A stretch of 64,000 bases of DNA from Isoetes taiwanensis. Lineage: Eukaryota > Streptophyta > Lycopodiopsida > Isoetales > Isoetaceae. The stretch is taken from the NCBI GenBank assembly GCA_021234155.1, contig JAJEKV010000049.1, positions 9,524,292 through 9,588,291 on the forward strand. The letters run 5' to 3'. The notes under the pieces are model-generated. The model was not told where the DNA came from. It saw only the letters and a program-made list of their open reading frames with translations, and did not search any database. Below, in pieces: positions 6,061 to 64,000 of this stretch. Every line of letters begins with the position of its first letter. The first letter of the stretch is position 1. A program made the translations under genes and the position numbers.

Positions 6061-6539
6061 ACACCTCCACATAACCACATGTAGATTTTTCAAAACAACA
6101 ACACGTGGTCCTTCTTTTACTATTGGTTTTAAGTGTGAATCCAGAATTGTAGTGGTTGTGAAACAGAAATGGGATAACATTGTAACAATGCAACATGGAT
6201 TCAGAACGCTCCATGGGAAGGAAGGCTGCCCCTTGCATTTGTCCGTTGATCCTGTTTTATACCCACATTGGCTCCAGTGTTTGCAAAGCCAGCATCAACC
6301 ATCTGACCGATGGTCAGACCTGTCATCGCAGGTCCATTCTGACCATTGTGGTCGACCCTGGTTACAACGCAGTTTTGCTGCTTGTTATGGTTGATTTCAG
6401 CCTGAAATTGAATGAAGCCCTCAATGGAAATACTAGAAGGAGGAACAAATGAATCCCTCCCTTTTAATAATTCATTGACGTAAAGTTTATTCATCACAAA
6501 TATCTCTCCAGTGGTTCTCCTGATGGAATGTGCAGGAGG

Positions 6540-7570: not shown

Positions 7571-7606
7571 TGCACCAGTTGCACCACATGTGGTTGCCAA
7601 CTATGG

Positions 7607-8268
7607 GCTTAAGGTACACCGTTGCAATTTTACTTTCCACATTGACTCTTCTCTAGACTATGTAGTTACAAATGCTATCTTCTGGACTTCAAATTGAATG
7701 GAGTACTTAGAAGATGTCTAACTAAAACTTATTTCTAATTTGTTTCTCAAGCATGCTTGCCTGAATAAAAGGCCACATCTGAATGAATGAGCATATCATT
7801 AATATGGCTTTATTCCTCAATCCTAGCAAATAAACCCTCTCCAGGTTTAGGCATAACTTTAACCATATGTCTTCATTTTTAATGTTGTGAATCAGTCTTG
7901 CTTCAATATGTGTTGACAAGGTTATAAATCAAAACATATGCTTTAGACGGATTCCTTAAGTCAAGTATTGGCATTCACATAGACAATGTATTTGAAAAAT
8001 CAACAACACTACTTAAAACTCCAATGCATAATAGGGCAATAAATACCAAACAATTTTAATTCTTTCTCCTTTTGTGTAACCCATAGCTTTAGCTTTGGAT
8101 ATTATGGAGAATTACTTTATATGGTCATGTCCTTCTAATTTTCATGTACTGACAAGGTGATAAATCAAAATTATACTTAGAACGATTTCTCAAACCAATA
8201 ATTAGAATTCTTTCTGTACCACTAAACTTAACACATGGAGCACTATTAGATATCCATATTCAAAATCA
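7607..8268. other. AT-rich intergenic DNA
   Basis: Nothing recognisable on either strand: no gene, repeat tail or structural RNA was found. Confidence 0.6.
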
Positions 8269-37830: not shown

Positions 37831-39405
37831 TGTGGCGTTTCCCCGACAAAGATACGGTCCCGGGGCGATATCTCGATCGCCCTAAATCCGCCGTTACACG
37901 CCACCCGACCGACGTGATATTATCGCCAGAAGCCAGGTGAGTAGCCCCTAGGGGGCAACTTGCAAGGTATGTGCATTTATTATTAATGTGCACACTTACC
38001 AATGTGCACATTTATTTAGGTGCACACCTTTCCATGTAGATACATTTATGCCACCTAGCCATTAAAGGCAAGTGGGCCATTCCCAATTATCCCACATGCT
38101 TAAGAGGATAATTGGAAACCCTAGCCCTAACCCCTTGTCTATTTAGGTAGGAGGGAACCCTAACTTGCCATTTTCGTCCATAGGGTTTTAGGGCTCTGTT
38201 TTGGCTGCCCCAGGAGCCAAAATCGCCTCCCTGAACTCCTGTAATTTTAATTGCACCATTAGTTTTCCTTGATTCGAGCAGTTCAGCAGAATGGTCGAAC
38301 TCAGGTCAGGAGGAGCAACCCAAGGATCAGGTATTTACTCAATTTAATAGCCTAAACCGTCTTTCAGTCATAGAATCAGTAGGTTTAGCCTATTAAATTG
38401 CCCATAGCAGCCATCTAGATCTCTAGATACCAGACTCTAACTAAAGAACCTAACTCTATGATATAGATTAGATCTAGTTCTTTAGTTCTTCTGTGATGTA
38501 TATGGATGATGTATCTCTATGAACTCCTTGTATTGGGAAGGGGGGTAGAGACCCCAAGCCTAGTAGTTGATGCTCCTAGTTAGCCTTTCTAGCACACTGT
38601 AGATTCGGCCTGTGTACAAGAACCACACCGGTTGTGGGTGAAGGGGCAGACCGCTAAGAAGGAGGTTCGTGTTTCGACTCTTGAACGATCCCTCGGTGTG
38701 TAAGGCCCACCGGGGATCATTGTGACTAGGTTTAATGGCTTACCACTGAGTGTGGGTAAGGCATGGGCTCGACACCGTGAAGTGGTGTTCACTTTCCGTG
38801 GGTTCAACCGAATAAGGGCAAAGTGGCCCTCTAGTCACCTTGAGTGACGATGTAGACCTCGGAGGGAGTGATCCCTACACGCCCCATCGGGAACCGGGAG
38901 ATGCAACCCGGGAATAGCCCTCTTGGCTATGCATCCCGGGCTACATGTCCAGTCCCAACACTTTTCAGCCTACCGCAAAGTGTGCACAGGAGGGGCGGAT
39001 GGAGTGGACAACCCTATGCCATGTTCTTATGCCAGCCAAATCCATTGCCATGAATTCTGTCTACAATGAACTCTGGAGACCCAAGCCGTCAGTCACCCCT
39101 TCGAGTCTGAGCCTTGGGTAGGAACCCCTATGTATGATGCTGATCATTGTCTATGCAGATGTTGATGCACCACCCTTCGAGGTAGATTTGTGACTATGTT
39201 GTATATTGACATGTATGTTTACGCTTCCGCAGCTAGGTAGGCCCTGAGGGAGACGGGGTAAAATGACCCCTTCACTCTTCCCACTGGGGACCCGGTACGG
39301 TCATAGTGATATGTGAAGGGCCCTGTATCAGCATGGAGCTGGTATGGGGGATGAACTCTTGTTTGTATACGGTGAGTGCACCGTATACGAGTAGGGGACG
39401 TCACA
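37831..39405 (+). repeat. Solo LTR of the Ty3/gypsy family seen at 43-64 kb
   Basis: Runs from TGTGGCGTT to ACGTCACA, 1575 bases, colinear with the G2 LTR (52765-54425, opposite strand) and with the start of the G1 LTR (52541). No internal sequence is attached. It lies inside the LINE linker. Flanking pentamers ACGGG and TTGGG agree in three of five bases, so the target duplication is decayed or imperfect. A conserved hairpin is at 39365-39388. Confidence 0.85.
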
Positions 39406-40850: not shown

Positions 40851-41124
40851 TTCCGTGGTCCCCATGGTAATGTCGACGTTTTAAGTCCATTGGCAAAGCC
40901 AATTCACAAGTTTCTCTGTCATAATAGTTTTGGCATGTCATCATTACCCTTGCCACATCATCATATTCTTGCCATGTCACCTTGGAGGCTTTTGCCAAAA
41001 CAACCATTGCCAAACTTTGTAACTTTCCGCATTTCCTTACGCTAATGACATCTTGACACATAGCATGTAATTACACCGTAGTGACTCATATGGATGAGTG
41101 GGGCATGATGATATAGTCATGCTT

Positions 41125-41710
41125 GTAAAATCACACCACTTCAATACCTCCTTAAAAACAACTATTTAAAAACTACACCTGGTTATAAACCACGCCTCAA
41201 AAAACCATATTTCCTTTAAAAGCAACTAGTTATACTTTAAAGCCATACCTCAAAAAATAACTCCTCGACTTAAAAAATCACACCACTTCATAAAACCATA
41301 CTTCCTTGAAAAACAACTGCTTAGAAACTACACTTGGTTATAAACCACACCTCAAAAAGACCATATGTTTTTAAGAAATAGCTACTTAAAAACTATACCA
41401 CTTTAGAAAACTATACTTCCTTAAAACATAGCCACTTACACCTCAAAAAAACCATATTTCCTTAAGAAAACAACTACTTAAAAACTACACGCATTTATAA
41501 ACCACACCTCAAAAAACAACACCTCAACTTAAAAAATCACATCACTTCAAAAAATCACACTTTCTTAAAAATAGCTAACTTGTTTATAAACCACGCCTCA
41601 AAAAGCCATACTTCCTTAAAAAACAACTACTTAAAAACTACACCTAGTTATAAACCACACCTCAAAAAACAACACCTTCTTAAAAACAACACATCTTCAA
41701 ACAAAAAAAA
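41125..41710 (+). repeat. G-poor degenerate minisatellite, copy 2
   Basis: Same array as 5370-6060, somewhat shorter. Confidence 0.75.
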
Positions 41711-41712
41711 AA

Positions 41713-42242
41713 GGGAAATTTACCAAAATAACCTTAATTGTTGACTTAATTCCCAAAAAGCCCTTCGTATTTCTGAAATTCCCAAAATGCCCTTAATTTT
41801 TAAGTATTTTTCCAAATAGCCCGTTGTATTTTAAAAATCATCAAAAAGCGTTATTCACAAATGTGAAGGTCGCCTTCTGGTCATGCATTTGTTATTATTC
41901 TTTTTCGACGACAAGTTCAGAGCTTTATACCCATCCAAATTACTTGTTGACCTCATTTTGCTATTCATATGGTGGAGCTATTTATTCATCAAATATTCAA
42001 CTTCTTAAAAATAATGAAATGCTATCTCCTGCAACATGTCCTCCTCTTGGCAGACCTAAAAGGAAACAGGATAGGACAGAAGACATTAGACAAAAATGTG
42101 TGTACAAGTGCACATGTTGTGGTAATGGCGGCCATAGCAGTTGAAGAAATTGTATAATAAAATGACGGTGAAATTATTAATGAAATGATGAAACGAAGCT
42201 TTTTGGTGATTTTTAAAATGCGAAGGGCTATTTGGGAATCCC
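41713..42242 (+). mobile_element. Internally deleted Mutator-like element with transposase tail
   Basis: Inverted arms of 38 bases at 41812-41849 and 42198-42235 (CCAAATAGCCC ... AAAAATCA.CAAAAAGC) enclose a relic of a MURA-type transposase C-terminus: CPPLGRPKRKQDRTEDIR, then a zinc knuckle CTCCGNGGHSS followed by a stop and RNC (about 42022-42162). Left of the arm lie two more tandem copies of the TTCCCAAAA.GCCCTT motif. Absent from duplication copy 1, though about 130 bases of copy 1 are also missing here. No clean 9-base target duplication was found. Confidence 0.65.
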
Positions 42243-43639
42243 GTGGTCCTTCTTCTACTATTGGTTTTAAGTGTGGATCCAGAATTGGGGTTGTTGTGAA
42301 ACATAAATGGGATAACATTGTAACAATGCAACATGGATTCAAAACGCTCCATGGGAAGGAAGGTTGCCCCTTGCGATTGTCCGTTGATCCTGTTTTACAC
42401 CCACATTGACTCCAGTGTTTGCAAAGCCGGTCAGCCATCTGACCGATGGTCAGACCTGCCATCTCAGGTCCATTTCGATCCTTGAGGTTGACCCTTGGCC
42501 ACAACGCAGCTTTGCTGCTTGTTATGGTTGACTTCAGCCTAAGGCAAAAGCTTCAGGCCCTTTTAATTTTCTTCCCAACCAACCGAGTAGTGTCACCTCA
42601 ACAATTTCATACCAATAATTATTTTAGTTTAATCTTGCTCCCTTCTAATCATGTTCATAACACCAGATGTTACCTCTTGGGATATTTCCTAGATTATTAT
42701 GAATGTAAGAGTGTCCTACAAATGGAAAAATCCAAAAGAAGAAATGGGTAACAAGAAACAAGAAGGATTGATTTGTATTCTAAGAACGAACAAATGGATT
42801 CAGTCTCAAATGCGTAATTGACTTTCCTACCTATTACAAAACGTCTCTAAGTTCATCCTCCAATGGTTCTAGGAAAGTATGTAGGCTCTTAGTGTTAGAA
42901 GTATGCTCTCCTTCGAAACAAAAGCTGGAATGTAATATCTCTAACCTTGGCATCAACATACTTCCCACCATTTAACACTATAAGTTAGACATTAATCTAG
43001 AGGAAGAAGAATGGATTGATGACCTCTCATAACAGGTAGTTGCCTATGGCAGCATGCGTGGTTTATGAAACATGCCCGCACCAGTTGCACCACATGTGGT
43101 TGTCAGCTATCAGGTGCATAAGGTACTCCAAACTAAAGAAGATCACCATCACTTGAAGCAGTACTTTTATGCTTTCCCTCTTAACAAACTTTAGGTTGTG
43201 GGCACCCTGGAACAGTTAAAACAACACACTACCAACAACAATTTAATCCCAAGCTCACACGAGACCTACAATGCTATCTGCATGCTTATAAGGATTGATT
43301 TGTATTCTAAGAATGAACGAATGGAGTCACTCTCAAATGCAATATGACCTTCATACATATTACAAAACATCTCTAATTTCATCCTCCAATGGTTCTAGGG
43401 AAGTATCTAGGCTGTTAGTATTGGAAGTAATGCTCTCCTTCGAAACAAAAAGTACTGGAATGTAATATCCCTAACCTTGGCATCAACATGCTTTCCACCT
43501 TTTAACACTATAAGTTGGACATTAATCTAGAGGAAGAAGAATGGATTGATGATCTCTTATAACAGGTAGTTGCCTATGGCAGCATGCATGGTTTATGAAA
43601 CATGCCTGTGCCAGTTGCACCACATGTGGTTGCCAACAG

Positions 43640-44480
43640 AAAGAGAAAACAGGAGAAGCCCAACACAGCCGAGGAGCCGAAGAAGAAGAAGGCGAAGGCG
43701 AAGGGCAAGATGGTGGGCAAGAGAAAAGTCGTACAGGTTAAGCGGGTAAAGGGTTTAGTCATCAACGAGCCGCAAACCGACCAGACCCCTCGCCCACCGA
43801 CGACTCCGACGGCTAAGATTACGCCCCCAACACTGAGGGGGCAAGCTCTTCAAAACCTCCGGTTGTGGAGAAGGTAGTACCGAAAGGTGTGGCACCCCGA
43901 GCAGAGCAGCTGGCAGCGCCGAAAGCCCCACCTTTTACCCGGACGCGGGGACAGGGTCAAAGCACCGCGGCCACAACGGGAGGCGTATGTGATAGACCCC
44001 GTCAAGGTCTATCAAAAGAAGCTGAGGGAACACAACACCTTCATGGCGAAGTGGGAGGCATACAACGCATACTATCAGGAGCAAAGGGTGAGAACCATCG
44101 AAGGCGGACACCCGACAAAGAGCCAGACCCTAAAACCGCCACCGCCGAAGCCCAAGCCTCCCAGAGCACTAGGAAAGAAGCGGACCGGCAGGAAGGAGAT
44201 GGAGAGGAGAGCCCTCAAGGAGATCCGGCACTTCCAGCGAAGTTACGGATTCTTGATCCCCCGAGCACCGTTTGCCCGCCTGGTCCGAGAGGTCATCCAA
44301 GAGTATAACACAGACATGAGGGTGACTGACGAGATGTTGCTGGCCCTGCAGGATGCAACATAGCAGAAACTGGTGCAGCACTTCGAAGATTCGACGGCCT
44401 GCACAGTTCACGAGAAGAGGGTCACACTTATGAGGCAAGATATGCATCTTGCTAGTCACATCAAGGGAGAGCGCCCTTAA
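43640..44480 (+). pseudogene. Histone H3 / CENH3-like coding region of G1
   Basis: Ends in a histone H3 fold occupying 44211-44480, the same length as canonical H3 from the alpha-N helix to the end, with no loop-1 expansion. Landmarks: ALKEIRHFQ (44211), LIPRAPFARLVREV (44256), LALQDA (about 44340), [11 protein letters not shown] (44379) and [10 protein letters not shown] (44412), closing with IKGERP. The positions matching H3 Cys110, His113 and Asp123, which form the H3-H3 contact, are kept. EIRHFQ, LIP and TLMR resemble plant CENH3 more than H3. Upstream is a Lys-rich tail (PKKKKAKAKGK) and a conserved KWEAYNAY segment (about 44050). Part of a fossil LTR element and broken. The same region is found in G2. 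Confidence 0.85.
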
Positions 44481-44626
44481 ACATTTTGTAAATAATAGAA
44501 AATTTTTGTTAATATAAAGGAATTTTTGGTTAAATAATATGTTTAATCTTGCTTAATTAGGTTAAGATATTGAATTCCAGCTTTGTTTTGGTTAAATTGG
44601 ACTTTTTGAGCAAAATTGAGACGATG

Positions 44627-44693
44627 TCTCACACGTCGCGCCAGGACAGAAAATGAACTTTTCATTTTCGGGCTGGGCGCAACGTGTGAGACC
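44627..44693 (+). other. Hairpin 1 of G1
   Basis: Near-perfect inverted repeat with arms of about 32 bases: GTCTCACACGTCGCGCC at the left, GGGCGCAACGTGTGAGAC at the right, meeting through GAAAATGAA/TTCATTTTC with a loop of about three bases. Lies between the H3-like region and the accessory ORF. Confidence 0.85.
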
Positions 44694-44823
44694 ATGCCCC
44701 AAAAATGCCCAAAACAGCTCCAAATTGACCAAATAAGGGGTCAATTCTGCCTATCTCGACGAGTCCAGTAGAATTAGGCCCTTAGATCACCCAAATTGGT
44801 CAAGTTTAGCCCATTTAGAGCCC

Positions 44824-44892
44824 ATGTCTCACACGTCGTGCCAGGGCAGAAAATAAACTTTTCATTATCGGTCTGGGCGCAACGTGTGAGAC
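44824..44892 (+). other. Hairpin 2 of G1
   Basis: Second copy of the same inverted repeat, about 200 bases on, with its own substitutions but the same arms (GTCTCACACGTCGTGCC / GGGCGCAACGTGTGAGAC). Confidence 0.85.
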
Positions 44893-45084
44893 CTCTCAGC
44901 ATTTTCTTCACCATGCCATATCCAAATGATCTCCAGTTTGTTGCAATAGATTCATTAGTTGATCTTAGCATGCTCAAACCCCAAAAGTAGTCTTCAAATC
45001 CTCATTTTAGCCTCCTAATAGGTCAGAATTACCCAACCCCAGTAAAATTCTAGGTCATCCAAAAATTAGGGTTTCTCACTTTTC

Positions 45085-45092
45085 TATAAATA
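45085..45092 (+). promoter_or_regulatory. TATA box upstream of the accessory ORF
   Basis: TATAAATA in CTTTTCTATAAATAGG, about 115 bases before the accessory ATG. The same motif in the same context is present in G2 (62645-62652, minus strand). Suggests an internal promoter. Confidence 0.55.
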
Positions 45093-45206
45093 GGTCCCCC
45101 ATTTCTCACTTAGCACCCCACAAGTTTGCTCTTAACTGTTTAGGCGATTTTCCAGCTCCCTGAGGCACTTCTGCATCCGTTTGTTAGTCTCACCTTCATT
45201 AGATCA

Positions 45207-46733
45207 ATGGCCACTGCTGACTTCAGGCGATGGTACAGCGCCAGTGCCCATGCTGTCGAGGCTGATGTCAATGACATCTTCCGAGTCTTTAGAAAAGAGA
45301 TAGATGTCCAGGCAACGCTGCATGCAACCCCAGCATATAGCCAAGTATTAGCCGAGTCCCAAGCTAGGGTAGGAGCCTCCCTAGTGCAGCTACCCCCTTG
45401 CACAGGCTATTTTGTTCCCCGCCCATCCCTTCAAGCAGCCCTGGGCGACGTTCTGAACATCGCCAAATACTTGACCAACAAGGCACAGAGGCTGCCAGAT
45501 TACATGGTCCTGACAGTTGACAGGACCAAGTATTTCTCCTACACCGCCGCCTTAGCCATTTTCCTTTCCCACCGTGCCGAAAACCCAATGGGGGGAACCT
45601 CTATTCCTCCCATGGAGGTGGACCCCATAGCAGCCTCAGCAGCAGAGCGGATGCTTTTGCAGTACCAGCAAGAGCAGGAAGGAAGAGCGGAAGAAGAGGA
45701 ATCGGACGAGGAAGAGTACACGGAGCTCGACCCAGAGGAGGAATGGCAGCAAGCGGAGGAGGAGCTAGCCAACTACGAGCGGAGCCGGCAGACCCTCAGA
45801 GTCGCTCCCCCACTTGGGCTAGGCATCACAAGCCTAGCCCCCATCATCATCGACGGCGAGGAGTATTTGCTCCTCAGCGACATCCAGAATCTCCCCGAAT
45901 GCAGGGAGAGGGAGCTCCGACTTGATGAGTTGCTGCACCAACTACGGCAGCAACCAGACTTGGACGACTTCATCATCCGGGGAGTCTCAGACTTCCCGCT
46001 CCAAGTGCGAGAAGCCGACACCTATACAGGGGAGTCGACTTCCGACATCCAGGCCTATAGCAACACAAGACAGGTTATGGAGGCCCGAGACTTGTCATCT
46101 GAAGAAGAGTTCCTCGTCATTCAGGAACGGATGGGGATCAGAGGCAAGACCACAAGCATCTTGATGTCGAGCTCGTCGACACCACCTCGCGCAAGAGGAG
46201 CAGGAATCGACATCAGGCGAGTCGACTCGACAATTGCAGACTACCGAGAACTGACTGAGGTAGAGGTCGACGAATACGCCGGACGGCATAGAGCTGGAGG
46301 CCAAGCAAGTGGGGAATCATCTGCGACACACAATGACAGGTCGCTGAGGTACTACCTTCCCCTGCTGCTGGATGGAAGAATAGCGGTGGTACACCGCAAA
46401 TTTAGTCCCCGTGGTGAAGAAGGAGTGTTCATGCTCATTGCACTCTCAGGCTTTGGCAGGCATGCTCGAATAGCTGCAAACGTCGACTATGCTGTCTTAG
46501 TCAAGAGTGCGATGGCACTCGACCTCTTCGACTTCGCCGTGGCCTACCGACGGCAGGGAAGATTGGCAGTGACCGCGGTTTACACCTCCGACCGCAGGGT
46601 AGAAGAATTGGTGACAGCCTTGCAGGGCGGGTCATCAACCAATGTCCTTAGGAACTTGGGACGCTCGGTGGGAACGTCCCAAGTTAAGAAGTTCCTCGAG
46701 GACAACCCATCTTACCGGCGATTTCAAGAATAG
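45207..46733 (+). CDS. Accessory ORF of G1, acidic, unknown function
   Basis: 508 codons, open, upstream of gag and in the same direction; start at the first ATG after the TATA box (ATCAATGG). No known domain was recognised. Residues 1-135 look globular (DVNDIFRVFRKEIDVQATL, LNIAKYLTNKAQRLPDYM). At about 150-185 there is a very acidic stretch (EEEESDEEEYTELDPEEEW) leading into a helical segment. Residues 230-300 are rich in Leu and acids; 330-390 contain Ser/Arg-rich linker; and 395-508 appear globular again (YYLPLLLDGRIAVVHRKF, VFMLIALSGFGRHARIA, VKKFLEDNPSYRRF). It is not an Env: no signal peptide or membrane segment. The counterpart in G2 (61032-62540) is recognisable along its length. Acidic tracts occur in histone chaperones, but that link is inference. 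Confidence 0.8.
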   Translation: MATADFRRWYSASAHAVEADVNDIFRVFRKEIDVQATLHATPAYSQVLAESQARVGASLVQLPPCTGYFVPRPSLQAALGDVLNIAKYLTNKAQRLPDYMVLTVDRTKYFSYTAALAIFLSHRAENPMGGTSIPPMEVDPIAASAAERMLLQYQQEQEGRAEEEESDEEEYTELDPEEEWQQAEEELANYERSRQTLRVAPPLGLGITSLAPIIIDGEEYLLLSDIQNLPECRERELRLDELLHQLRQQPDLDDFIIRGVSDFPLQVREADTYTGESTSDIQAYSNTRQVMEARDLSSEEEFLVIQERMGIRGKTTSILMSSSSTPPRARGAGIDIRRVDSTIADYRELTEVEVDEYAGRHRAGGQASGESSATHNDRSLRYYLPLLLDGRIAVVHRKFSPRGEEGVFMLIALSGFGRHARIAANVDYAVLVKSAMALDLFDFAVAYRRQGRLAVTAVYTSDRRVEELVTALQGGSSTNVLRNLGRSVGTSQVKKFLEDNPSYRRFQE

Positions 46734-46951
46734 TTAGACTCTTGATCCCGGGGGTTTTTGTATTAAGATATTATATAATATAAATATAATTTCTTTTGCA
46801 CTTTAAATGTTTTGTTGATGTATTTTGTTTCGCAACTATACCAACAACACATATAATGCAAGAGAACAAATGAAACTAACCGTATAGCCATGACCAACTT
46901 GTGTATGCAGCTAGAGGCCTAGGCTCAGGGGAACGACAACGCCGAGACCAT

Positions 46952-48364
46952 ATGGAAGAACAGACTCCGCCCAGGCCACCCCCGGCAAGGAGCCTGTATG
47001 AAGAATTTGGACCCATGACCCCAGAAGAGAAAATATCACAGATGAGGACGGACCTTGAGCAGATAAAGGCTCTCCTGGCCGCACAAGCAGGAGTGGGTTC
47101 GGAGGGCAACGCTCAGTTGCCACAAGCATCAGCTCGGAAAACAGGAAGGGACAAGAGGAGAAGCAAGAGAAGGAGCTCGGAATCCTCCGACTCAAGCTCA
47201 GATTCGGACTCCGACTCCGAGGAAGAGGAAGAGCAAGCCCAGGACCGTAGAGATGGAAGGCAGAGGGACACCACAGATGGAAGGCAGAGGGACACCACAG
47301 ATGGACGACAAAGGGATACAAGAGCCTCTGACTACCAGAAGGAGGTAGACTCGGCATTGGGAAATGTTTGGAAGGCCAGGAAGCTCGAGCAATTCTCAGG
47401 CGAGAACAGGTCAGGCATGGAGGTAGAGCGGCTCGATGAGATGAGTGAATATGGCAACGCTTATGGTATGAAGGACAAGGATAAAGGCAGGGTGGCAACA
47501 GCCAACCTGAAGGGAGCAACACGCATTTGGTGGAAGGGTTATGCCAAGGCCCATGGCTTAAGCAGGGATGCTTGCAGGTTCAGAGAGTTCGCTAAAGCTT
47601 TCAAGCGCCATTATGTCCCGAGAGAGCACAAGTCCAGCATAATGCAGCAGTTCTACAGGTTGCAGCAGGGAAACAAATCAGTCCAGAAATATACAGAGGA
47701 ATTCATGAGGCTAAGGCTTTATGTGCCAAAGTTGGGTGAAAAGCATGCAGTGGAGAGCTATATTGGGGGGCTGAATGATGAGATCCGCAAGCTTGTAAGG
47801 GCAATAAACCCTAAGACAGTATCAGAAGCAGAGTCCAAGGCAATAAGCTTGCAAGGAACGGGGCCTCAGAACAGCGGGCAGAGGCAACAATATTACCATG
47901 ATAAAGGCAAGGCAACAGGGAGTTATAGCCCTAGAGCAGCCAGCCCAGGCCCAGCTAGAGCCCCATATGGTGGCAACCAGGGGAAGCAGCAGGAGAAGAA
48001 GCATGTGTCCTTCAAAGACAAGCAGGAGGGGTCAAACTACTCCAAAGCAGTGCGATCCTTTTTGCAGGCGATGCCCAAGGAAAAGAGGCAGGAGTGCATA
48101 GAAAAGCAGCTTTGCTTCAGGTGCTTCCAGCCAGGCCACAGGACAGCGAATTGCCCCTACGTCATGAGTGCAGCGCTAGCGGAGTTGGGAGATTGGAACA
48201 CTCTGTCTGACGACGACGGCGAGGCAGCCTGCGACTACGTTCAGGGTGAGTGTCATATCTTTGCCGCAATAGATACAGAACAAGCAGAGAACCAGTATAA
48301 GGTAATTTCCACAGTAGGGGGCCAAGGCCAAGTCCTTCATAGTCCTGATAGACTCGGGAAGTAG
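46952..48364 (+). CDS. Gag of G1
   Basis: Open frame; the first ATG is at 46952, although the frame is open from 46901, where GTGTATGCAG could act as a splice acceptor. N-terminal part carries an Arg/Ser and acidic tract (KRRSKRRSSESSDSSSDSDS) and three copies of DGRQRDT. The Retrotrans_gag domain follows (WWKGYAKAHGLS, FKRHYVPREHKSSIMQQF, YTEEFMRLRLYVP, AVESYIGGL). A CCHC knuckle CFRCFQPGHRTANC is near the end. Gag forms the particle and packages RNA. It runs up to the protease region. Confidence 0.9.
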   Translation: MEEQTPPRPPPARSLYEEFGPMTPEEKISQMRTDLEQIKALLAAQAGVGSEGNAQLPQASARKTGRDKRRSKRRSSESSDSSSDSDSDSEEEEEQAQDRRDGRQRDTTDGRQRDTTDGRQRDTRASDYQKEVDSALGNVWKARKLEQFSGENRSGMEVERLDEMSEYGNAYGMKDKDKGRVATANLKGATRIWWKGYAKAHGLSRDACRFREFAKAFKRHYVPREHKSSIMQQFYRLQQGNKSVQKYTEEFMRLRLYVPKLGEKHAVESYIGGLNDEIRKLVRAINPKTVSEAESKAISLQGTGPQNSGQRQQYYHDKGKATGSYSPRAASPGPARAPYGGNQGKQQEKKHVSFKDKQEGSNYSKAVRSFLQAMPKEKRQECIEKQLCFRCFQPGHRTANCPYVMSAALAELGDWNTLSDDDGEAACDYVQGECHIFAAIDTEQAENQYKVISTVGGQGQVLHSPDRLGK

Positions 48365-51300
48365 CCATAACTTTGCATCCCCCAGAATGGTTGAGATGTT
48401 GAAGTTGAAACCGCTGAAGTCGAAGCCGAGGCCCGTTGTCCTAGCAGACAGCAGGCATGAGAATTAACTTCGACATCGACTTGCCAGGGATTAATATCCA
48501 GATGGGGGCAGAAGTAATGGGCATTGGCAAGTATGACTTGATCATAGGAATGGAGTAACTTGGACTAGCAGGGGCCATCATTGATTGTAGAAAGTGGAAG
48601 GTGACCTTCCCAATGCCCGACGGCAAGATCATTGAGATCACAGGTAAAGAAGTTGTTCCCATCATGCAGTGTATGTCTTCTAAACGACTGTTCAAGTGCA
48701 TCAAGAGCGAGCAGGTAACATACATCTTCAAGCTTGAGGTTGAAGAGCCGGAGTCAGAAGAAAGCAAAGAAGACAAGGTGCTCAGCAAGTTGCCGAAGCA
48801 AATAGCTAAGTTGATCACGGAATTCCACGATCTCTTTCCAGACGAGATCGAGCACCTCCCTCCTTACAGGGGAGTCGAGTGTGAGATAGCACTCGAACCA
48901 GGAATGAAGCCGACAAGCAAGGCTCCATATTGAATGATGACGCAGGAGTTGACGGAGCTAAAGAAGCAATTGCAGGAGTTGCTCGACCTAGGCTTCATTA
49001 GACCTAGTGTCTCACCATTTGGAGCGCCCATTCTTTTTGTCAAGAAGAAAGATGGCAGTTTGAGGATGTGCATAGACTATAGGCAGTTGAACAAGCACAC
49101 CATCAAGAACAAGTATGCGCTTCCCAGATCGGACGACTTGATGGATCAGCTCCAAGGCGCAAAGGTCTTCTCCAAAATTGACTTAAGGTCAGGCTATCAT
49201 CAGATCCGGATAAAGGAAGAAGATATCCATAAAACCGCCTTCAGAACGCGGTATGGGCATTATGAGTTCAAGGTAATGCCTTTCAGCTTATCGAACGCCC
49301 CCGCGACGTTCATGAGGCTCATGAACGACATCTTAAGGGAGTTCTTAGACACCTTTGTGATAGTGTTTTTTTAATGACATTTTGGTGTATAGCAGATCCC
49401 TTGAAGAGCACGTATAACACTTAAGGAGAGTGCTGGAGAAGTTGAAGAAGCACCAGTTGTACGCCAAGTTGTCAAAGTGCCACTTCGCAACGGAGAAGGT
49501 GGAATACCTGAGTCATGTGATCTCAGCAGAAGGAATTTCGACGGATCCCGCCAAGATTGAAGCAGTGATTCAGTGGCCGGCACCGAAGAATGTGCATGAG
49601 GTCAGAAGTTTCCTCGGCCTAGCAGGGTACTATAGGAAGTTCATGAAGAACTTTGCTAAGATAGCGGCCCCGCTAACAGACTTGACGAGGGCGGAGAAGG
49701 TGAAAGATTGGGCAGAGCATTGGCACAAGAAAGCCCAAGCGGGGTTTGAATTGTTGAAGGAAGCTCTGATGACCGCCCTTGTCTTGACCCTGCCAGACCC
49801 AGAGAAAGATAAGCTTGTAGCCGCAGATGCGAGTAAGATAGTTACAGGTGCAGTGCTCATGCAAGAAGAGTGTGTAGTAGCGTATGATTCCAGGAAGATG
49901 AATGACGCCGAAACGCGCTACCCGACGCACGACCAAGAATTGCTTGCGGTTGTTAGGGCATTAAGAATTTGGAGGCACTATCTCTTGGGAAGGAAGTTCT
50001 AATTGGATACAGATCATCAGAGCCTCCAGTATGTATTTACACAACCACATCTTAACCTGAGGCAGAGAAGGTGGATGGAGTTCCTTGAAGAGTATGACTT
50101 TGATATAGTCTACAAGCCAGGGAAGCTCAATGTGGTAGCGGATGCACTTTCAAGGCATACCCTGACAACTAGAGTGCATTTCAATGCAATTTCGACGCTC
50201 TCCAACGACTTTGGTAAGAAGATTGAAGAGTCCTTGCCAACGGACGTGGACTTCAAGGAAGTATGGGCAAGCTTATGCAGGGAAGCAAGAACAGATAAGG
50301 AGAGAGAAAGCTTCAAAAAATTTAAGAAGGAATCTCTTGTACCATAAGAACAAGTTGTGCGTGCCGGAATCATCGGGTGTGAGGAAGTTGATTCTCCACG
50401 ACACCCACAACAGCCCAATAGCTGGCCGTGCAGGATTTATGAAGACATATTTCAAAGTGCGCAGCAGCTATTATTGGCCCAGAATGAAGAAGTAGGTAGC
50501 TCGCTACATCAAGGAATGTCAGCTATGTCAGCAGACGAAAGCAGAGCAGCTCCGAATTCCAGGGGCATTAGAGCCATTAGCGGTGCCAAACGCTAAGTGG
50601 GAGGTCATCAGCATGGACTTCATCACAGGGCTTCCAAGGACGGTAAGAGGGAAGGATGTCTTGATGGTAGTGGTCGACAAGTTGTCGAAGATGGCACATT
50701 TTGTGCCTTGCAGGACCACAAGCACCGCTATGGATACAGCGAAGCTCTTCACCAAAGAGATCTTCAGGCTTCATGCATGCCAAGGGAGATTATCTCCGAC
50801 AGGGATCCGAAATTCATGAGCGCCTTTTGGCAAGACCTCTTTGCGACAATTCAGACGAAGCTATCTATGAGCACAGCATACCATCCTCAGACGGATGGCC
50901 AAACAGAGCGGACCAACGGGATTTTGGAGGACATGCTACGGAACTACGTCTGGAACAAGCAAGGTATATGGGAAGAATTTATTCACTTGGTGGAGTTTGC
51001 CTACAATAGCACCAAGAAAGAGTCATCCCAAATGTCGTTATTTATGATCAATTACGACTATCAATGCCTAACTCCAGACACTTGGCACAACCCCGTGTCA
51101 AAAGTAGAGGTTTCGCAGCAGATGTTGTCCGACATGTAGCAGCTCGTGGAAGAAGTTCGAGGGTATCTGCTGGCAGCAAGGAGTCGACAAAAGAGCATCG
51201 CCGACAAGCATCGAACAGTCAGGGAGTTCCAAGTGGGAGATGATGTATGGCTCAAGATCAAGGTAAAGCAGGCGAAGCTCCGCATCGGCAATTGTAAGAA

Positions 51301-51658
51301 GCTTGCTCCAAGGTGGGCTGGACCTTTCAGAATAGTCAAGAGAATAGGAAATCAATCCTATAGATTGGACCTACCAGCACACCTAAAGATTCATAAGGTC
51401 TTCCACGTGAGTTTGTTGAAGAAGCACACTCCAAATCTGGAAATAGTTCCAGAATTGATTCTTGATAAAGCCTTCAAGAAAACAAGGAGATCAGAGTTTC
51501 TCCAATACTTGGTCAAGTGGAAACACTTGCCAGTGGAAGACGCGACATGGGTACTTAAGAAAGATCTAGTAAAGCAGTACCCACAGTTCATGGAGCAATG
51601 GGACGGCAAGGTCATCTCCGAAGAAATCGGCTCAGGCATGTCGATTTGTGTAGATTAA
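48300..51658 (+). pseudogene. Pol of G1: protease, RT, RNase H, integrase, chromodomain
   Basis: Fossil pol with a handful of breaks. Parts: aspartic protease region (about 48300-48600), RT (48600-49600; [34 protein letters not shown]), RNase H (about 49800-50200), integrase with zinc-binding HNSPIAG region and core ([25 protein letters not shown]; about 50390-51100), and a C-terminal chromodomain (YLVKWKHLPVEDATWV, about 51507-51560). Chromodomains mark the chromovirus clade and, in studied members, bind histone marks such as methylated H3 to steer insertion. Confidence 0.9.
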
Positions 51659-52540
51659 TTCTATGTGTAGTTAAGATTAACCCACGATGCAACCTATGCT
51701 AGATATGGGTTGCATGCGTTGTTATCGATGATGAGACCACTACGGTGATCTCTAGGGCGGTGTAATGTCAATGTAGGCATGACCGCGTTTCGCGCTGGAT
51801 GAGTGGAAGGTAGATTAGAAAGTCTACTGCTCCACGGCAGAGGCGACCTCGAGAGAAAAGAGGTCATTGAGGAATGCATTGATAGGAAAAGCACCTCTAG
51901 CCCCATATATGCTTTGATAGGAGGAATCTGGCCTTCACGCCCCATATACGGGAAGGACCTATCCTCCACGCTGGGCAACTAAAGGTGTAGGCATGAGCGG
52001 CATATAGGCATATAGGCACTGTCTCCACGGCCACGATGGAAGATTCACCCTCTTCCTACGCCGGGAGATTAGCCATGCATTCATGTAGATAGGTGGGGTG
52101 GTCACCATATAACCAAAAATTTTATTAATAATTAAATGGTACTAACGTAGTGTCGACCTGCAGGCCAATAGAGCGTTCCGGAGGGCAAGGAGGTCGAGCT
52201 ACGAAAACTTGCAACACAAATTTTGTTGGAATGTGTTGCAAGGAATGAAGAGTACCTCGAACATTAATTATATATATGAAATATTAAAATTTTGATAAAC
52301 TAAATTGTCGTGAAAAGTAAGTTATTGAGTAACTTGTTTTAACGATGTTACGATTTGATAAGTTATTTCGTAAGATAATAGCGTAATAATGTTCTAAAAA
52401 TATTACCTTAAGGTAATCTTAATAAATGTGTAAGTATTATAGTAGTATATTGTATGCATCAGGTTGATTGCAGGTTAGGAAGATTCCAAGGTGGGGAGAC
52501 CCACCATGCCGCCGGACAAAGATCATTTCAAGGTGGGGAG
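51659..52540 (+). other. 3' noncoding region of G1
   Basis: About 880 bases between chromodomain and LTR, conserved in G2 (54426-55360). Holds a perfect palindrome ATTACCTTAAGGTAAT (about 52404-52419) and the purine tract CAAGGTGGGGAGAA just before the LTR, with a second CAAGGTGGGGAG 35-40 bases upstream. Confidence 0.75.
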
Positions 52541-52764
52541 AATGTGACGTTCTAGCACAATTATAACGGCCCCCGGACATATACATCGCATCGCTTCGCC
52601 ACGCGACACGCCACCCCCGACCGACGATACCGCCGCGTAGATCAGATGAGTAGCCCCTAGGGGGGCAACTTGCAAGGTATGTGCATTTATTATTAATGTG
52701 CACACTTACCAATGTGCACATTTATTTAGGTGCACACCTTTCCATGTAGATACATTTATGCCAC
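52541..52764 (+). repeat. 3' LTR of G1, first 224 bases
   Basis: Starts TGTGACGTTCTAGC after the purine tract. It matches the solo LTR at 37.8 kb to ATTTATGCCAC, where G2 is inserted. Confidence 0.85.
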
Positions 52765-54425
52765 TGTGACGTCCCCTACTCGTATACGGTGCCCTCACCG
52801 TATACAAACAGGAGTTCATCCCCCATACCAGCTCCATGCTAATACAGGGCCCTCCACATGACACTGCAACCGTGACGGGTTCCAGTGGGAAGAGTGGAAG
52901 GGTCATTGCACCCCGTCTCCCTCAGGGCCTACCTAGCTGCGGAAGCGTAAACATACATGTCAGTAGCACATACATCAACATCATATGACCATCACGAAGG
53001 ATGGTCCTCCACATATCTGCATAGACAAAGATCAGCACATCACATAGGGAATCCTACCCAAGGCTCAGACTCAAAGGGATGATCGACGGCTTGGGTCTCC
53101 GTGAGTTCATTGCGCATGTAATTCATGGCAATGGATTTGGCTGGCATATGAACATGGCTTAGGGTTGTCCACTCCATCCGCCCCTCCCGCACACTTTGCG
53201 AGTGGTCGAAAAGTGTCGGGACTGGCCAGAGCCAGCCCGGATGCATAGCCAAAGGGGCTATTCCCCGGTTCATCCTCCCAGCCCGATGGGGCGGTAGGGA
53301 TCACTCCCTCCGTGAGATCTACATGCTGACTCAAGGTGACTAGAGGGCCACCGCCCAGATTCGACGGAACCACGGGAAAGTGAATACCACTTCACTGCAG
53401 CCGAGCCCATGCCTTGCCCACACGCAGCTGGCAAGGCATTAGACCTAGTCACAATGATCCCCGGTAGGCTTTACACACCGTGAGGGATCGCTCAAGAGTC
53501 GAACATGAACCTCCTTCTTAGCCAGTCTGGCCCTCCACCCACATCCCTGTGGCTCTTGTGCACAGGCCGAATCTACAGTGTGCTAGACAGGCTACTCTAG
53601 GAGCATCAACTACAAAGCTTTAGATCTCTACCCCCCTTCCCAATACAAGGAGTACATAGAGATACCTCATCCATATACTTCACAGAGAACTAAAGAACTA
53701 GATCTAATCTACAACATAGAGTTAGGTTCTTTAGTTAGAATCTGCTATCTAGGGATCTAGAGGGCTGCTATGGGCAATCTAATAGGCTAAACCTACTGAT
53801 TCAATGACTAAAATAGGGTTTAGACTATCTAATTGGCCAAATACCTGATCCTTGAGGGGCTCCTCCTGACCTGAGCTCGACCATCCCCCAAAACGCCGAG
53901 TCAAGAGAAACTAAGGATGCAATTCTCCCGTGCAGTAGTTCGGGATGCGCTTTGGCCGCTGAGGCAGCCAAAACAGAGTTCTAAAGCCCTAAAATCTAAA
54001 AATTGGGCTAGCTAGGGTTTCCTACCCTATATAGACAAGGGGTTGGCTAGGGTTTCCAATTATCCCTTTGGCATGTGGGATAATTGGAAATGGGCCCACT
54101 TGCCTTTAAGGGCTAGGTGGCCAAATGTGCACACATGGAAATGTGTGCCCATTTTAATGTGTACATTGGAAAATGTGCACATTAATTGCACCTATGGGTG
54201 TGGCCCACTTGGCATGAAGTGTCCACTTGGGAATGTGTGCCCACATTAATGTGTACATTGGAAAATGTGCACATTAATAGTTGCACATATTTCTGGCACG
54301 TCACCCCCTAGGGCTACTCGCACCGCTACACGCTTAGCCGCACACGCCACCGAGGTGGCGGTACGCCGTGGACTAGGCAAAGACGATACCGCCCCGGGCC
54401 GTGATAATCGTGGCCGAACGCCACA
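52765..54425 (-). repeat. 3' LTR of G2, complete
   Basis: 1661 bases, TGTGACGTC at the plus-strand left end and GCCGAACGCCACA at the right, followed by the complement of the purine tract (TTCTCCCCACCTTG). Colinear with the solo LTR at 37831-39405. Hairpin GTATACGGTG-CCCT-CACCGTATAC at 52782-52805. Confidence 0.88.
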
Positions 54426-55364: not shown

Positions 55365-58300
55365 AATTGTGGGTACCGCTTTACTAAATCTTTCTTAAGT
55401 ACCCACGCCGCGCCTTCCACGGTAAGTGTTTCCACTTGACCAAACATCGGAGGAATTCCGATCTCCTCGTTTTTTCTTGAGAGCTTTTATCAGAATCAAT
55501 TTCGAACTATTTCCACCGCTCCTCCATCATTTCCAACAACGTTGGAGAATCCAAGACTTCGTCTGGGTTTGGAGTATGCTTCTTCAACAAACTCACGTGG
55601 AAGACCTTATGAATCTTTAGGTGTGCTGGCAAGTCTAGCTTGTAGGATTGATTACCTACTCTCTTGACTATTCCGAAGGTCCAGCCCACCTTGGAGCAAG
55701 CTTCTTGCAATTCTCGATCCCCGAGCCGCTTTGTTTCACCTTGATCTTGAGCCAAACATCATCTCCAACTTTGAACTCTCTTATCGTTTCGATGCTTGTC
55801 GGCGATGCTTTTCCGACGACTTCTTGCCGCAAGGAGATAACCTCGAACTTCTTCCACAAGCCGCCGTGATATCGCCAACATCCGCCGCGAACTTCCACTT
55901 TTGACACCGGGTTGTGCCAAGTGTCCGAGTTAGGTAATCGAGAAGTCAGAATTGATCATAAACTGGCGACATTTGGGATGATTCTGCTTGGTGCTATTGT
56001 ATGCAAACTCCACCAAGTGAATAAATTTTTCCCACATACTTTGCTTATTCCAGACATAGTTTCAGTAGCATGTCCTCTAAAACTCGTTGGTCCGCTTCCG
56101 TCCCGCCATCCGTCTGAGAGGATGATATGTCAGGCTCATGGATAGCTTCATCGGATCGCCGAAAGAGGTCTTGCCAAAAGGCGCCATGAACTTTGAATCC
56201 TGTCGGAGATGATCTCCTTGGCATGCCATGGAGCCCAAGATCTCTTTGGTGAAGAGCTTTGTTGTGGTCCATAGTCAGACTGTGGTCCCGCAAGGCACAA
56301 AATGTGCCATCTTAGACAACTTGTCGACCACTACCATCAAGGCATCCTTCCCTCTTGTTGTTCTTGGGAGTCCTGTGATGAAATCCATGTCTGATTACCT
56401 CCCACTTAGCGTTCTCGACACCGCTTAATGGCTCTAATGCCCCCGAATGAAGTTGTTCGCCTTTGTCGGCCGACATAGCTGGCATTCCTTGATGTAGCGA
56501 AGCCACCGCTTCTTCATTCCGGCCAATAATAGCTGCTGCGTACTTTGAAATATGTTTTCATGAATCCCGCATGGCGGCTATTGGGCTGTTGTCAGCGTGT
56601 CATGGAGGATCAATTTCCTTATACCCGATGATGGCACGCACAACTTGTTCTTATGGTATAACAGGTTGCCTTCCTTCTTAAAATGCTTAAAGGCTTCCGC
56701 TCCTTATCTGTTTCTAGCCTCCCTAGAGAGACTTGCCCATACTTCCTTGAAATCCACGCCCGTTGGCAAGGACTCTTCAATCTTCTTACCAAAGTCATTT
56801 GGAGATCGCCGAAATTGCATTGCAATGCACTCTAGTTGTCAGGGGATGCCTTGAAAGCGCATCCGCTACCACATTGAGCTTCCCTGGCTTGTAGACTATA
56901 TCAAAGTCGTACTCTTCAAGGAACTCCATCCACCTTCTCTGCCTCAGGTTGAGGTGTGGTTGCGTGAATACATATTGGAGGCTCTGGTGGTCTGTATCCA
57001 ATTGGAACTTCCTTCCCAAAAGGTAGTGCCTCCAAATTCTTAATGCCACGACAACCTAGCAATTCGATCGAGGCGTGGGGGTAGCTGCGTTCGGCGTCGT
57101 TCATCTTCACGGAATCATCGCTACCACCGCTCTTCTTCTTGCATAAGCACTGCTCCTGTAGCTATCTTACTTGCGTCCGTCGCTACAAGCTTATCTTTCT
57201 CCGGGTCCGGCAGGGTTAAGACTGGGGCTGTTGTTAAAGCTTCCTTCAACAATTCAAACCCTGCTTGGGCTTTCTTGTGCCAATGCTCTGCCCAATCTTT
57301 CACTTTCTCTGCCCTCGTCAAGTCTGTTAGCGGGGCTGCTATCTTGGCAAAGTTCTTCACGAACTTCCTGTAGTACCCTGCTAGGCCGAGGAAACTTCTG
57401 ACTTCATGCACATTCTTCGGCGCCGGCCACTGAATGACGGCTTCAATCTTTGCAGGATCCGTCGAGATGCCTTCTGCTGAGATCACATGACCTAGATACT
57501 CCACCTTCTTCAAGGCGGTGGCACCCGACAACTTGGCGCATAACCGGTGCCTCTTCAACTTCTCCAAGCACTCTTCTCAAGTGTTATGCGTGCTCTTCAA
57601 GGGATCCGCTATACACCAAAATGTCATCAAAGAAAACAATCACAAAGGTGTCTAAAACTCCCCAAGATGTCGTTCATGAGCCTCATGAACGTTTGGGCGC
57701 TCGATAAGCGAAAGGCATTACCGTGAACTCATAGTGCCCATACCGCGTTCCGGCGGTCTTATGGATATCTTCTTCCTTTATCCTGATCCGATGATAACGA
57801 CCTTAAGTCGATTTTGAGAAGATCTTTTGCGCCTTGGAGTTGATCCATCAAGTCATCGATCCGGGGAGCGATACTTCCTTTATCCTGATCTGATGATAAC
57901 CTGACCTTAAGTCGATTTTGGAGAAGATCTTTGTGCCTTGGAGCTGATCCATCAAGTCATCTGATCTGGGGAGCGCATACTTGTTCTTAATGGTGTGCTT
58001 GTTCAACTGCCTATAGTCTATGCACATCCTTAAGCTGCCATCCTTCTTCTTAACGAAGAGAATGGGCGCTCCAAATGGCGAAACACTAGGTCTAATAAAA
58101 CCTAGGTCAAGCAGCTCCTGCAACTGCTTCTTTAGCTCCGACAACTCCTGCGTTGTCATTCTATATGGAGCCTTGCTCGTTGGCTTTGTTCCCGGTTCGA
58201 GTGCAATCTCGCACTCGACTCCCCTGTAAGGAGGGAGCTGCTTGATCTCGTCTGGAAAGAGATCGTGGAACTCCGTGATCAGCTTAGCTACTTGCTTCGG

Positions 58301-59460
58301 CAACTTGCTGAGCACCTTGTCTTCTTTGCTTCCATCCGATTCCGGCTCACTAATCTCAAGCTTGAAGATGTACGCCACCTGCTCGCTCTTGATGCACTTG
58401 AACAGCCTCTTAGAAGACATGCACTGCATGATGGGAACAACTTCTTTACCTGTGATTTCGATGATCTTGCCGTCAGGCGTCGGGAAGGTCACCTTCCGCT
58501 TTCCACAGTCGATAATGGCCCCTGCTGGCCCAAGGTACTCCATTCCTATGATCAAGTCATACTTGCCAATGCCCATTACTTCTGCCCCCATCTGGATATT
58601 AATCCATGGCAAGTCGATGTCGAAGTTAATTCTCTTGCCCGCCGTCTGCCTTACTGCACCACTTGCTAAGACAACCATGGAATAAAATAACGGCTAAGGT
58701 TAGCCAAATGGCTATTTTGTAGCAGTTTTGCAAAGGAAAACGGCTAAAGTAAATAGAAAAAATGCCCAAAAAAAAGAAAATTTTAGCCCAATTTTTTTGT
58801 CGCCCAAGTGAGTTTTTAGGTTGAATAGCCAAACCTTTACCTCCAGACATATCCATCAGGACATCGATTAGCTAAACCTAAGATAGAGTGGGCTTGGAAA
58901 AATGGATAGATTAGCCTGAAATTCAACACCAATGTATGTAACTTTAAGAAATTTCAAATAGGGTTTATATTTTTCTTTTTCTTTTTTTCCACTTTCTTTC
59001 TTGTTCCAAGTACAAAGTTGAAGCATTAGAGGAAAAGAAACAATGTAGTCCCTTTTTTTTTTGGTTTTTGAACATGTTCATGTATGTTTGTGTCTTGATT
59101 TATGTATTTACAATAAATTCAATGTCTTTGCCAAAATGCTTGGATTTTTTTAAATTACTATAGCGTGATGGCTAATATTTGTCTTTCCATTTTGTGAAAG
59201 TTTAGCCAAAAGCAAGAAACTGTGATGGAGAAAAACCATTTAGTTTAGCCAAGTGTTAGAAACTTCTAGCCCCAATTTGAAGGTAGTTTAGCTAAACCTA
59301 TTTTGGCTACACTAAAATATAGGAGTAGTAATTTATTCCATGAAGACAACGGGTCTTGGCTTGGACTTTAGCGGCTTCAACTTCAACATTTGAACCATTC
59401 TGGGGGATGCAAAGTTATGGCTACTTCCTGAGTCTATCAAGACTATGAAGGACTTTGCCT
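55365..59460 (-). pseudogene. Pol of G2
   Basis: Same domain order as G1: chromodomain and integrase C-terminus (PAHLKIHKVFHVSLLKKHTPN at about 55560-55630), integrase core (55900-56500), RNase H (56800-57110), RT (57121-58280) and protease region (58300-58678 and right of the inserted DNA transposon). Broken in many places. Confidence 0.85.
58679..59339. mobile_element. Small non-autonomous DNA transposon inside G2 pol
   Basis: Absent at the matching place in G1 (near 48440). About 660 bases with ends GGAATAAA and TTTATTCC. CATG occurs on both sides (58676-58679, 59339-59342), so the target duplication may be CATG with ends GAATAAA/TTTATTC, or AT with one base more in the ends. The motif GTTTAGCCAA/GGCTAA recurs near both ends, as subterminal repeats do. 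No coding capacity. Superfamily unknown. Confidence 0.75.
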
Positions 59461-62837: not shown

Positions 62838-62896
62838 TCACGTTGCTGCACCGATTTTAAAAATGTCGAAATCTGTCTCGCGCGGCGACGTGAGAC
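62838..62896 (-). other. Hairpin 2 of G2
   Basis: Inverted repeat with GGTCTCACGTTGC and GCGACGTGAGAC ends, matching hairpin 2 of G1. More eroded than hairpin 1. Confidence 0.75.
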
Positions 62897-63028
62897 ATGG
62901 GTTCTAATTGGGCTAGGCTTACTCAATTTAAGTGATCTAAGGCTGTAATTCCACTAAACTCATCGAGTTAGGTAGAATTGACCCCTTACTTGGTCGATTT
63001 GGAGCTGTTTTGGGCATTTTTGGGCATG

Positions 63029-63096
63029 GTCTCACACGTTGCGCCCAGCCCGATTTCTAAAATCTAAAAATCTGTCCTGGCGCGACGTGTGAGACA
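63029..63096 (-). other. Hairpin 1 of G2
   Basis: GTCTCACACGTTGCGCC and GGCGCGACGTGTGAGAC arms with AT-rich centre. Arms still pair although the inner bases differ from G1 (GATTT/AAATC in place of GAAAATGAA/TTCATTTTC). Confidence 0.85.
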
Positions 63097-63243
63097 TCGT
63101 CTCAATTTTGCTCAAAACTCCAATTTAATTAAAACAAAAGCTAGGGATCGATATCTTGACCTATTTAAACGGGGTTTGACACTTTATTTACACAAAATTT
63201 TCTTTATATTAACAAAATTTTCCAGTTATTTACAAAACTCAAG

Positions 63244-63999
63244 GGCGTTCTCCCTTGATGTGCCTGGCAAGATACATATCCTGCCTCATGAGGGTAACCC
63301 TCTTCGCGTGCACCGTGCAGGCCGTTGAATCTTCAAAATGCTTTACTATGTTCGCTTCGGCCGCCTCCTGTAAACACAGCAAGATCTCGTCGGTCCGCAT
63401 GTATACGTGTTATATTCTTGCATAACCCAGCGGACCAAAGCGTTGGGGCGTATACGGGAATCAAGAGTCCGTAACTCTTACGGAAATGGCGGATCTCCTT
63501 GAGGGCTCTGTCTTCTAGCTTCTTCTTCTTGTTAAAGCTTCTTCCACGGTGCTTTGGGGAGGCTTGGGCCCGGGTGGCGGTGGCTTCAGGTTACGCCTTG
63601 GGGGTACTCGCCTTATTTGTTCTTACCCGATGCTCACGGAAATAGGCATTGTATGCCTCCCACTTCTCCACATAGGAGTTGTGCTCTCTAATCCTCTTCG
63701 ATAGACCTTTACGGGGTCTATCACATAGGCCTCCCGGGTCGCGGGGGGCTTTAACCCCGTCCCCACGCCGGAAGCGGTGGGGGCTTAAGCCGAAGGTCCT
63801 GGGTCTCCTCACGCTCTTGGGCTATCTCGCTCAGGGACCTCTTCCTCTGACCAGGGGGCTTTGAAGAGCTTGCCCCGTCTCGCTCGTGCACGTAGTCTTC
63901 ATCCGAAGTCGTCGGTGAGTGGGGAGTCTCCTCTCCCGGCGGCTCGTTGATGACAAGATCCACTGCCCGCTTCCCAACTTTTATCACCTTCCTCTTGCC
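63244..63999 (-). pseudogene. Histone H3 / CENH3-like coding region of G2
   Basis: Second copy of the H3-like region, running off the right edge. Clear landmarks on the minus strand: EIRHF and LLIP (about 63500-63450), [10 protein letters not shown] and [11 protein letters not shown] (63395-63310), [10 protein letters not shown] (63309-63280), and [10 protein letters not shown] before the end (63275-63246). HAKRVT is the canonical H3 spelling; G1 has HEKRVT. The KWEAYNAYF segment and basic tail lie at about 63660 and beyond. Broken, as is the rest of the element. Confidence 0.82.
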
Positions 64000-64000
64000 T

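Follow-up and report, generated by a model that had tools for sequence, protein, structure and literature searches.

A chromodomain-bearing Ty3/gypsy retrotransposon lineage in Isoetes taiwanensis carries a captured histone H3 gene

In the lycophyte Isoetes taiwanensis, the first long open reading frame (ORF) of a lineage of chromodomain-bearing Ty3/gypsy retrotransposons is a captured canonical histone H3 gene, located between the 5' LTR/primer binding site (PBS) and ORF1-gag-pol. We assign a probability of about 0.6 to the reading that the encoded protein is a long-tailed H3 variant, kept under selection, that enters nucleosomes, a function we infer. In the following, the window denotes the whole stretch of 64,000 nucleotides that was analysed; it harbours two copies of the element, which belong to clade A of the family, while B, C and D denote its sister clades.

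Results

The H3 fold encoded in the window

Every H3 landmark named in the initial annotation lies within one frame (43887-44480, plus strand), in which the only internal stop is a TAG at 44361-44363. The globular domain, i.e., alpha-N to C-terminus, covers 44202..44480 and ends with the stop codon TAA at 44478-44480. Searched separately, both open pieces pass the cut-off of the Pfam Histone profile PF00125 (26.4 bits), namely 43887-44360 with E 8.7e-12 (45.8 bits) and 44364-44477 with E 3.2e-6 (27.9 bits). Among the structures of the PDB, H3 chains match best (E 2.8e-24). The contact residues of H3 are found as well, with several of them altered in clade A. The H3 fold reported upstream of hairpins, ORF1 and gag is thus real. 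Its canonical length holds for the globular domain, which shows no indels, but not for the whole protein, for which intact copies encode 411-459 aa.

The AlphaFold model of the window's H3 protein is weak (pTM 0.28), so the assignment of the fold rests on sequence. Foldseek returned three matches for this model, which are chains of nucleosome complexes with 42-48% identity and poor TM-scores.

Comparing the two copies, 43 of the 81 differences within the fold fall on third codon positions of the H3 frame. The fold's dN/dS is 0.233 in this frame (94 codons) and 1.26 and 1.69 in the other two. We obtained 0.148 for the REAYVI part (43980-44110), 0.352 for ORF1, 0.280 for gag and 0.093 for a pol piece. 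The far 5' part of the linker (43716-43860) yields 0.82, i.e., no constraint is seen there between the window copies.

Anatomy of the two copies

Copy 1 is arranged on the plus strand as 5' LTR, H3 ORF, hairpins, ORF1, gag, pol with chromodomain and a 3' LTR that is cut at 52764; copy 2 is nested, inverted, inside this 3' LTR. The 5' LTR of copy 1 (37834..39405, TGTGGC...GTCACA) is 91.9% identical to L027:2858-4226 and 83.5% identical to the 5' LTR of copy 2. The start of the 3' LTR (52544..52764) is split from its rest (L027:2858-4226) by the insertion of copy 2. A PBS is not recognisable in copy 1 and only approximate in copy 2.

The H3 ORF of copy 1 is abutted by another repeat (40856..43637, plus strand), also present at 5097-7620, whose matches end at 43637-43635 and show 89-93% identity where they are long. 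This repeat removed or displaced the 5' part of the ORF, i.e., the N-terminus of the protein. It contains a direct duplication (42763-43105 and 43290-43635), which matches 6722-7620 too. The N-terminal extension/linker of the H3 ORF (43638..44201, plus strand) shows a basic KKKKAKAKGK followed by a REAYVIDPVKVYQKK... motif and is broken by frame changes.

Between H3 ORF and ORF1, self-matches reveal a hairpin region of inverted and direct repeats (44587..44895, plus strand). A similar hairpin pair is found at the corresponding place of copy 2 (about 62840-63110), and the pair is possibly an RNA signal for the production of the downstream ORFs. ORF1 (45207..46733, plus strand, 508 aa) has 85 scored loci in the genome; a Pfam search found no domain in it and its structure model is uninformative (mean pLDDT 32). 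It is followed on the same strand by gag (46901..48364; Retrotrans_gag, Ty3_capsid) and the pol pieces (48601..51658), in which stops and frame changes break the reading. The latter comprise RT (48934-49371), RNase H (49430-50344), a weak integrase (about 50597-51136) and SH3 plus chromodomain (51146-51655).

On the minus strand, the 3' LTR of copy 2 (52765..54363) is 92.7% identical to its 5' LTR (L027:1189-2797). An open pol piece of 276 aa (57848..58678) served as query of our pol search. The H3 ORF of copy 2 (63242..64000) provides fold part and linker and continues past the window edge to MARTKQIAFEA (L027:533). The second, opposite-strand copy of the initial annotation is confirmed insofar as 63999-54210 aligns to 43716-52763 in three pieces; its fold, on the other hand, is frameshifted. 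About 0.7 kb between gag and pol of copy 2 (58650-59344) appear as an alignment gap, i.e., they are without counterpart in copy 1.

Element type

That the H3 gene is borne by a chromovirus agrees with the domains we found, namely Retrotrans_gag (2.4e-16), RVT_1 (2e-22), RT_RNaseH_2 (2e-27), the Tf2-1-like SH3_Tf2-1 (5.1e-23) and Chromo (1.4e-10). The integrase core is weak in copy 1 (rve 0.0084, below cut-off) and is found at 7.9e-9 in the clade B locus L025. By eye, the integrase chromodomain is of type II.

The features of an LTR retrotransposon are present in two elements, one from clade B and the other from clade D, and LTR pairs occur in both window copies. In L013 and L015 from the sister clades, the H3 ORF is flanked by LTR pairs, the PBS TGGTATCAGAGC, a purine tract and target site duplications (CAATC; GTGACC), and it is the first ORF of at least 150 aa after the 5' LTR. 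L015 has no ORF between H3 and gag. Other sister-clade loci show an extra ORF of about 150-170 aa before gag (L010:4634-5149, L019:4760-5215, L028:4666-5169), which ends with [IV]QAWARYKLVRAVRESVRY..., IQ-motif-like by eye; for the one from L010, no Pfam domain was found. The terminal inverted repeats and transposase of a hAT-H3L transposon are not what we see, since the H3 gene is located between LTRs with gag-pol downstream. A host gene cluster or a chance association is ruled out by the LTR-internal position and the copy number.

Prevalence in the genome

A search of the whole assembly (1,658,258,908 bases in 1110 contigs) with the window's H3 protein gave 150 scored matches, all with E<1e-94 and an identity of at least 79%, besides 10764 loose first-look candidates that are unconfirmed. 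By eye, 119 of the 150 are without internal stop and 31 contain one. The PF00125 search also gave 150 scored loci, of which 15 cover the profile from position 2 and 135 begin later. The eight inspected from the first group (L001-L008) are canonical host H3, and all 19 inspected from the second have the H3 fold. A gag match lies within 10 kb at 17 of these 19 (not so for L023 and L024).

Given that these 19 loci had been picked by H3, we also picked loci without reference to H3. Taking one in four of the 85 scored ORF1 loci (n=20), the H3 ORF is found upstream at 18 (not at the expected place in L042 and L048). Every tenth of 140 scored pol loci gave 14, and 7 of the 8 inspected contain the H3 ORF (not at the expected place in L064). 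Three of the remaining six are covered by other searches: L052 has H3 and L048 does not (both already in the ORF1 sample), and the third has a match of the H3 search on its upstream side, at a distance of about 4 kb (C1056:19682213). Since both queries stem from the window's clade, the rates of 18/20 and 7/8 are valid for that clade; the sister clades were sampled through H3-chosen loci. Two outcomes had been named beforehand as speaking against a captured gene, i.e., lack of a histone profile match and confinement of H3 to the two copies, and neither was seen.

Clades and protein architecture

Scanning 25 clade A loci gave 17 readable starts and five complete ORFs of 411-456 aa (L036, L050, L053, L055, L056). 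Another 15 ORFs of 411-459 aa, from clades B (10), C (4) and D (1), were taken as complete among the 19 H3-chosen loci (excluding L021, L025, L026, L028). The clade A protein consists of an H3 tail, a clade-specific extension of about 300 aa and a complete H3 fold. It starts exactly with MARTKQTARK in 11 of the 17 readable starts, where A1, T3 and K/R at positions 4 and 8 were fixed by the search pattern itself. Among the other tail residues, R2 and T6 occur in 17/17, Q5 in 16, A7 and K9 in 14 each; S10 is replaced by P in all 17.

Starts picked by eye for the sister clades are MPRFK/MSRFK/MPHFK (B), METPK/MEEVK (C) and MANTK (D), whose recurrent K at position 4 could be left over from the H3 tail. 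The N-terminal extensions of B, C and D are homologous to one another (E 7e-29 to 5e-39), and no homology to the clade A extension was detectable. Extensions contain strongly basic stretches. ORF1 of clade A is weakly similar to the ORF at the same place in clade B (profile E 8.6e-4, probability 23%) and, in tblastn, to 2 of the 19 loci (E 1e-5 to 2e-5).

Selection and residue conservation

Within clade A (5 ORFs, 10 pairs), dN/dS is 0.071 for the tail, 0.254 for the linker, 0.075 for the REAYVIDP motif, 0.155 for the next part, 0.054 for the fold and 0.172 for the whole ORF. The respective values for N-domain, linker and fold are 0.133, 0.197 and 0.041 in clade B (10 ORFs) and 0.196, 0.166 and 0.019 in clade C (4 ORFs). 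These estimates derive from intact ORFs, which may favour low values; the contrast between fold and linker is observed within the same ORFs. That is, the family dN/dS asked for in the initial annotation reveals strong purifying selection on the fold (0.019-0.054) compared to the linkers (0.166-0.254). Together with the H3 ORF at independently chosen loci and its presence in further clades, this bears out that the family kept its captured gene.

We also checked 36 H3 positions (H3 numbering) in the 20 ORFs taken as complete. The host residue is found in 20/20 at positions 52, 69, 72, 73, 81, 83, 93, 97, 106, 110, 113, 115-118, 123, 126 and 130. Constraint falls on positions known for H4 pairing, H3-H3' contact and contact to nucleosomal DNA. 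Altered in all five clade A ORFs are K53, R63, L65, F84, Q85, S86, K122 and R129 (e.g., R63P, F84V, R129H), and in all ten clade B ORFs E105 and R134. Judged from the sequences, selection shows the protein to be of value to its element; presence in nucleosomes does not follow from it.

Origin of the gene

Over 96 fold positions, 46-53 are identical to host H3 in clade A, 79-82 in B, 84 in C and 85 in D. In the fold tree, clades A, B, C and the P0020 family described below form one clade each, A being on a long branch; B/C/D group with host H3 (80/84 support), with weak support for the deep branches. Loop 1 has H3 length throughout A-D and the C-terminus is of H3 type (GERP).

The initial annotation had considered a CENH3 source, given the motifs EIRHFQ, LIP and TLMR. 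These are also shared with Arabidopsis CENH3; they are more simply explained as derived changes in one fast-evolving clade. The clade A fold shares 43-48 of 96 positions with the Arabidopsis CENH3 sequence used for comparison, i.e., its identity to H3 is similar or slightly higher. Neither a loop-1 insertion nor a CENH3-type end is found, and within the phylogeny called for at the outset, clade A stands apart from this Arabidopsis CENH3 (weak deep support). Canonical loop 1, H3-type C-terminus and the identities to host H3 thus indicate by sequence that the source is canonical H3; a CENH3 origin is not supported.

Whether one or two captures occurred was approached via the other genes. The RT tree places A apart from B/C/D, with B and C not each forming a single clade (four too-short loci dropped). 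Gag-pol is related across clades, with up to 59% identity for gag; for RT, 9 long matches were obtained beyond the window itself, 8 of which show 59-69% and the ninth 39%. The same gene order and the related gag-pol favour a single capture, while the unrelated clade A extension favours two.

Related sequences elsewhere

A protein database search with the window's H3 protein gave 28 H3-type proteins with a best identity of 53%, none of them a close family member, and a viral contig search gave no match. Among the 28, 16 belong to the P0020 family. This family is multi-copy: 129 proteins match the N-terminal part of P0020, and the 120 listed are all from 'ena' contigs. Members followed to their end have an H3 fold, with 67-73 of 94-96 positions identical to host H3 (8 aligned). 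From its sequences, the P0020 family looks transposon-borne. With ORF1, the protein search yielded P0030 as single relative (45% identity over 99%), encoded on a Logan contig of 2007 bases. The element lineage thus probably exists in another sequenced sample.

Discussion

How might an H3 gene serve its element? The element H3 would pair with host H4 and would be deposited into nucleosomes by host chaperones, such that its extension is displayed there. We consider this nucleosome entry probable, given the residues kept. The displayed extension could then loosen or disguise the chromatin on element DNA, or could tether the integration complex; that the element benefits in either way is a tentative proposal to which we give slightly less than even odds. 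Unlikely, in our view, is the more specific idea that element H3 within nucleosomes is recognised by the integrase chromodomain or Gag and so marks sites of insertion or activity.

Other roles have to be weighed against nucleosome entry. The protein could act off chromatin as a mimic of the histone tail, which occupies H3 readers, H3K4/K9 enzymes or chaperones and thereby weakens silencing. The first nine H3 residues, exact in 11/17 clade A starts (pattern partly fixed), K9 in 14/17 and the many synonymous changes in the clade A tail (5 ORFs) are in line with such a decoy. The exchange of S10 in every readable start is not; furthermore, clades B/C/D lack the ARTKQTARK tail but have the best-kept fold, such that the constraint shared by all is on the fold rather than the tail. 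We thus deem a decoy rather unlikely. Protamine and viral histones compact or protect nucleic acid, and the fold could do so for the element's cDNA or RNA, be it within the particle or within the reverse-transcription complex. Such a structural role would suit the basic extensions and a gene that is regularly found ahead of gag; it is nevertheless quite improbable since constraint is found at residues known for H4 pairing, H3-H3' and nucleosomal DNA contact.

We give hardly any credence to an element-encoded CENH3 that steers copies to centromeres or founds them: the motifs shared with the Arabidopsis sequence face a canonical loop-1 length, the GERP end and sister clades that are clearly H3. 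Equally implausible is a passenger, i.e., a host H3 that was picked up accidentally and multiplied without serving any function. Neither window copy is intact and internal stops occur in the scored copies, but the fold's dN/dS is below that of the rest of the same ORFs and H3 is present at most loci chosen without it.

Transposon-borne H3, viral histones and gene capture by Ty3/gypsy elements are already known from PMC3538342, PMC9145170 and PMC9289625. The nearest precedent of the element H3 is H3L, a gene borne by a hAT DNA transposon of the species Pyrenophora tritici-repentis (Manning et al. 2013, PMC3538342), a fungus. H3L has an insertion in its N-terminal tail as well, is neither H3 nor CenH3, and occurs in 26 very similar, recent copies, for which its authors suspect drift. 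Here, by contrast, the carrier is an LTR retrotransposon, one clade of which has 150 scored copies; sister clades exist, and purifying selection is strong. For viruses, a singlet H3 (PMC5423620) and the bracovirus histone CvBV-H4 are described, the latter with an extended N-terminal tail, joining host nucleosomes and altering expression (PMC9145170). As a mobile or viral histone acting via its tail, the bracovirus H4 is the nearest working model, although it is an H4 with a 38-aa extension from a DNA virus (polydnavirus) instead of an H3 with about 300 aa from a retrotransposon. Orchid Ty3/gypsy elements likewise retain a captured host-type gene, an ORF for the m6A demethylase AlkB; these are Tat/Ogre-like and encode an RNA demethylase rather than a histone (PMC9289625).

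Gag-pol with an integrase chromodomain is shared with Tcn1, Galadriel, Chlamyvir, Tekay, Reina and CRM, for which the excerpts of PMC6317226 and PMC3350952 mention no histone gene in plant chromoviruses. The word histone is also absent from the main text, as far as available, of the genome papers on I. taiwanensis (PMC8566536) and I. sinensis (PMC10541799). The ligand of type II chromodomains is reported as not yet identified (PMC6317226); the element H3, with its K4/K9 tail or a replaced tail, is a possible one. Our searches of the open-licence literature brought up no histone-bearing LTR retrotransposon.

The H3-bearing elements amount to a naturally occurring collection of H3 variants with long tails. 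Retrotransposon silencing goes through marks on histone H3, a protein around which DNA is wrapped. A high-copy lineage with its own selected H3 offers a handle on how a parasite acts upon the silencing protein of its host, and these elements may build or disguise chromatin to aid their own spread.
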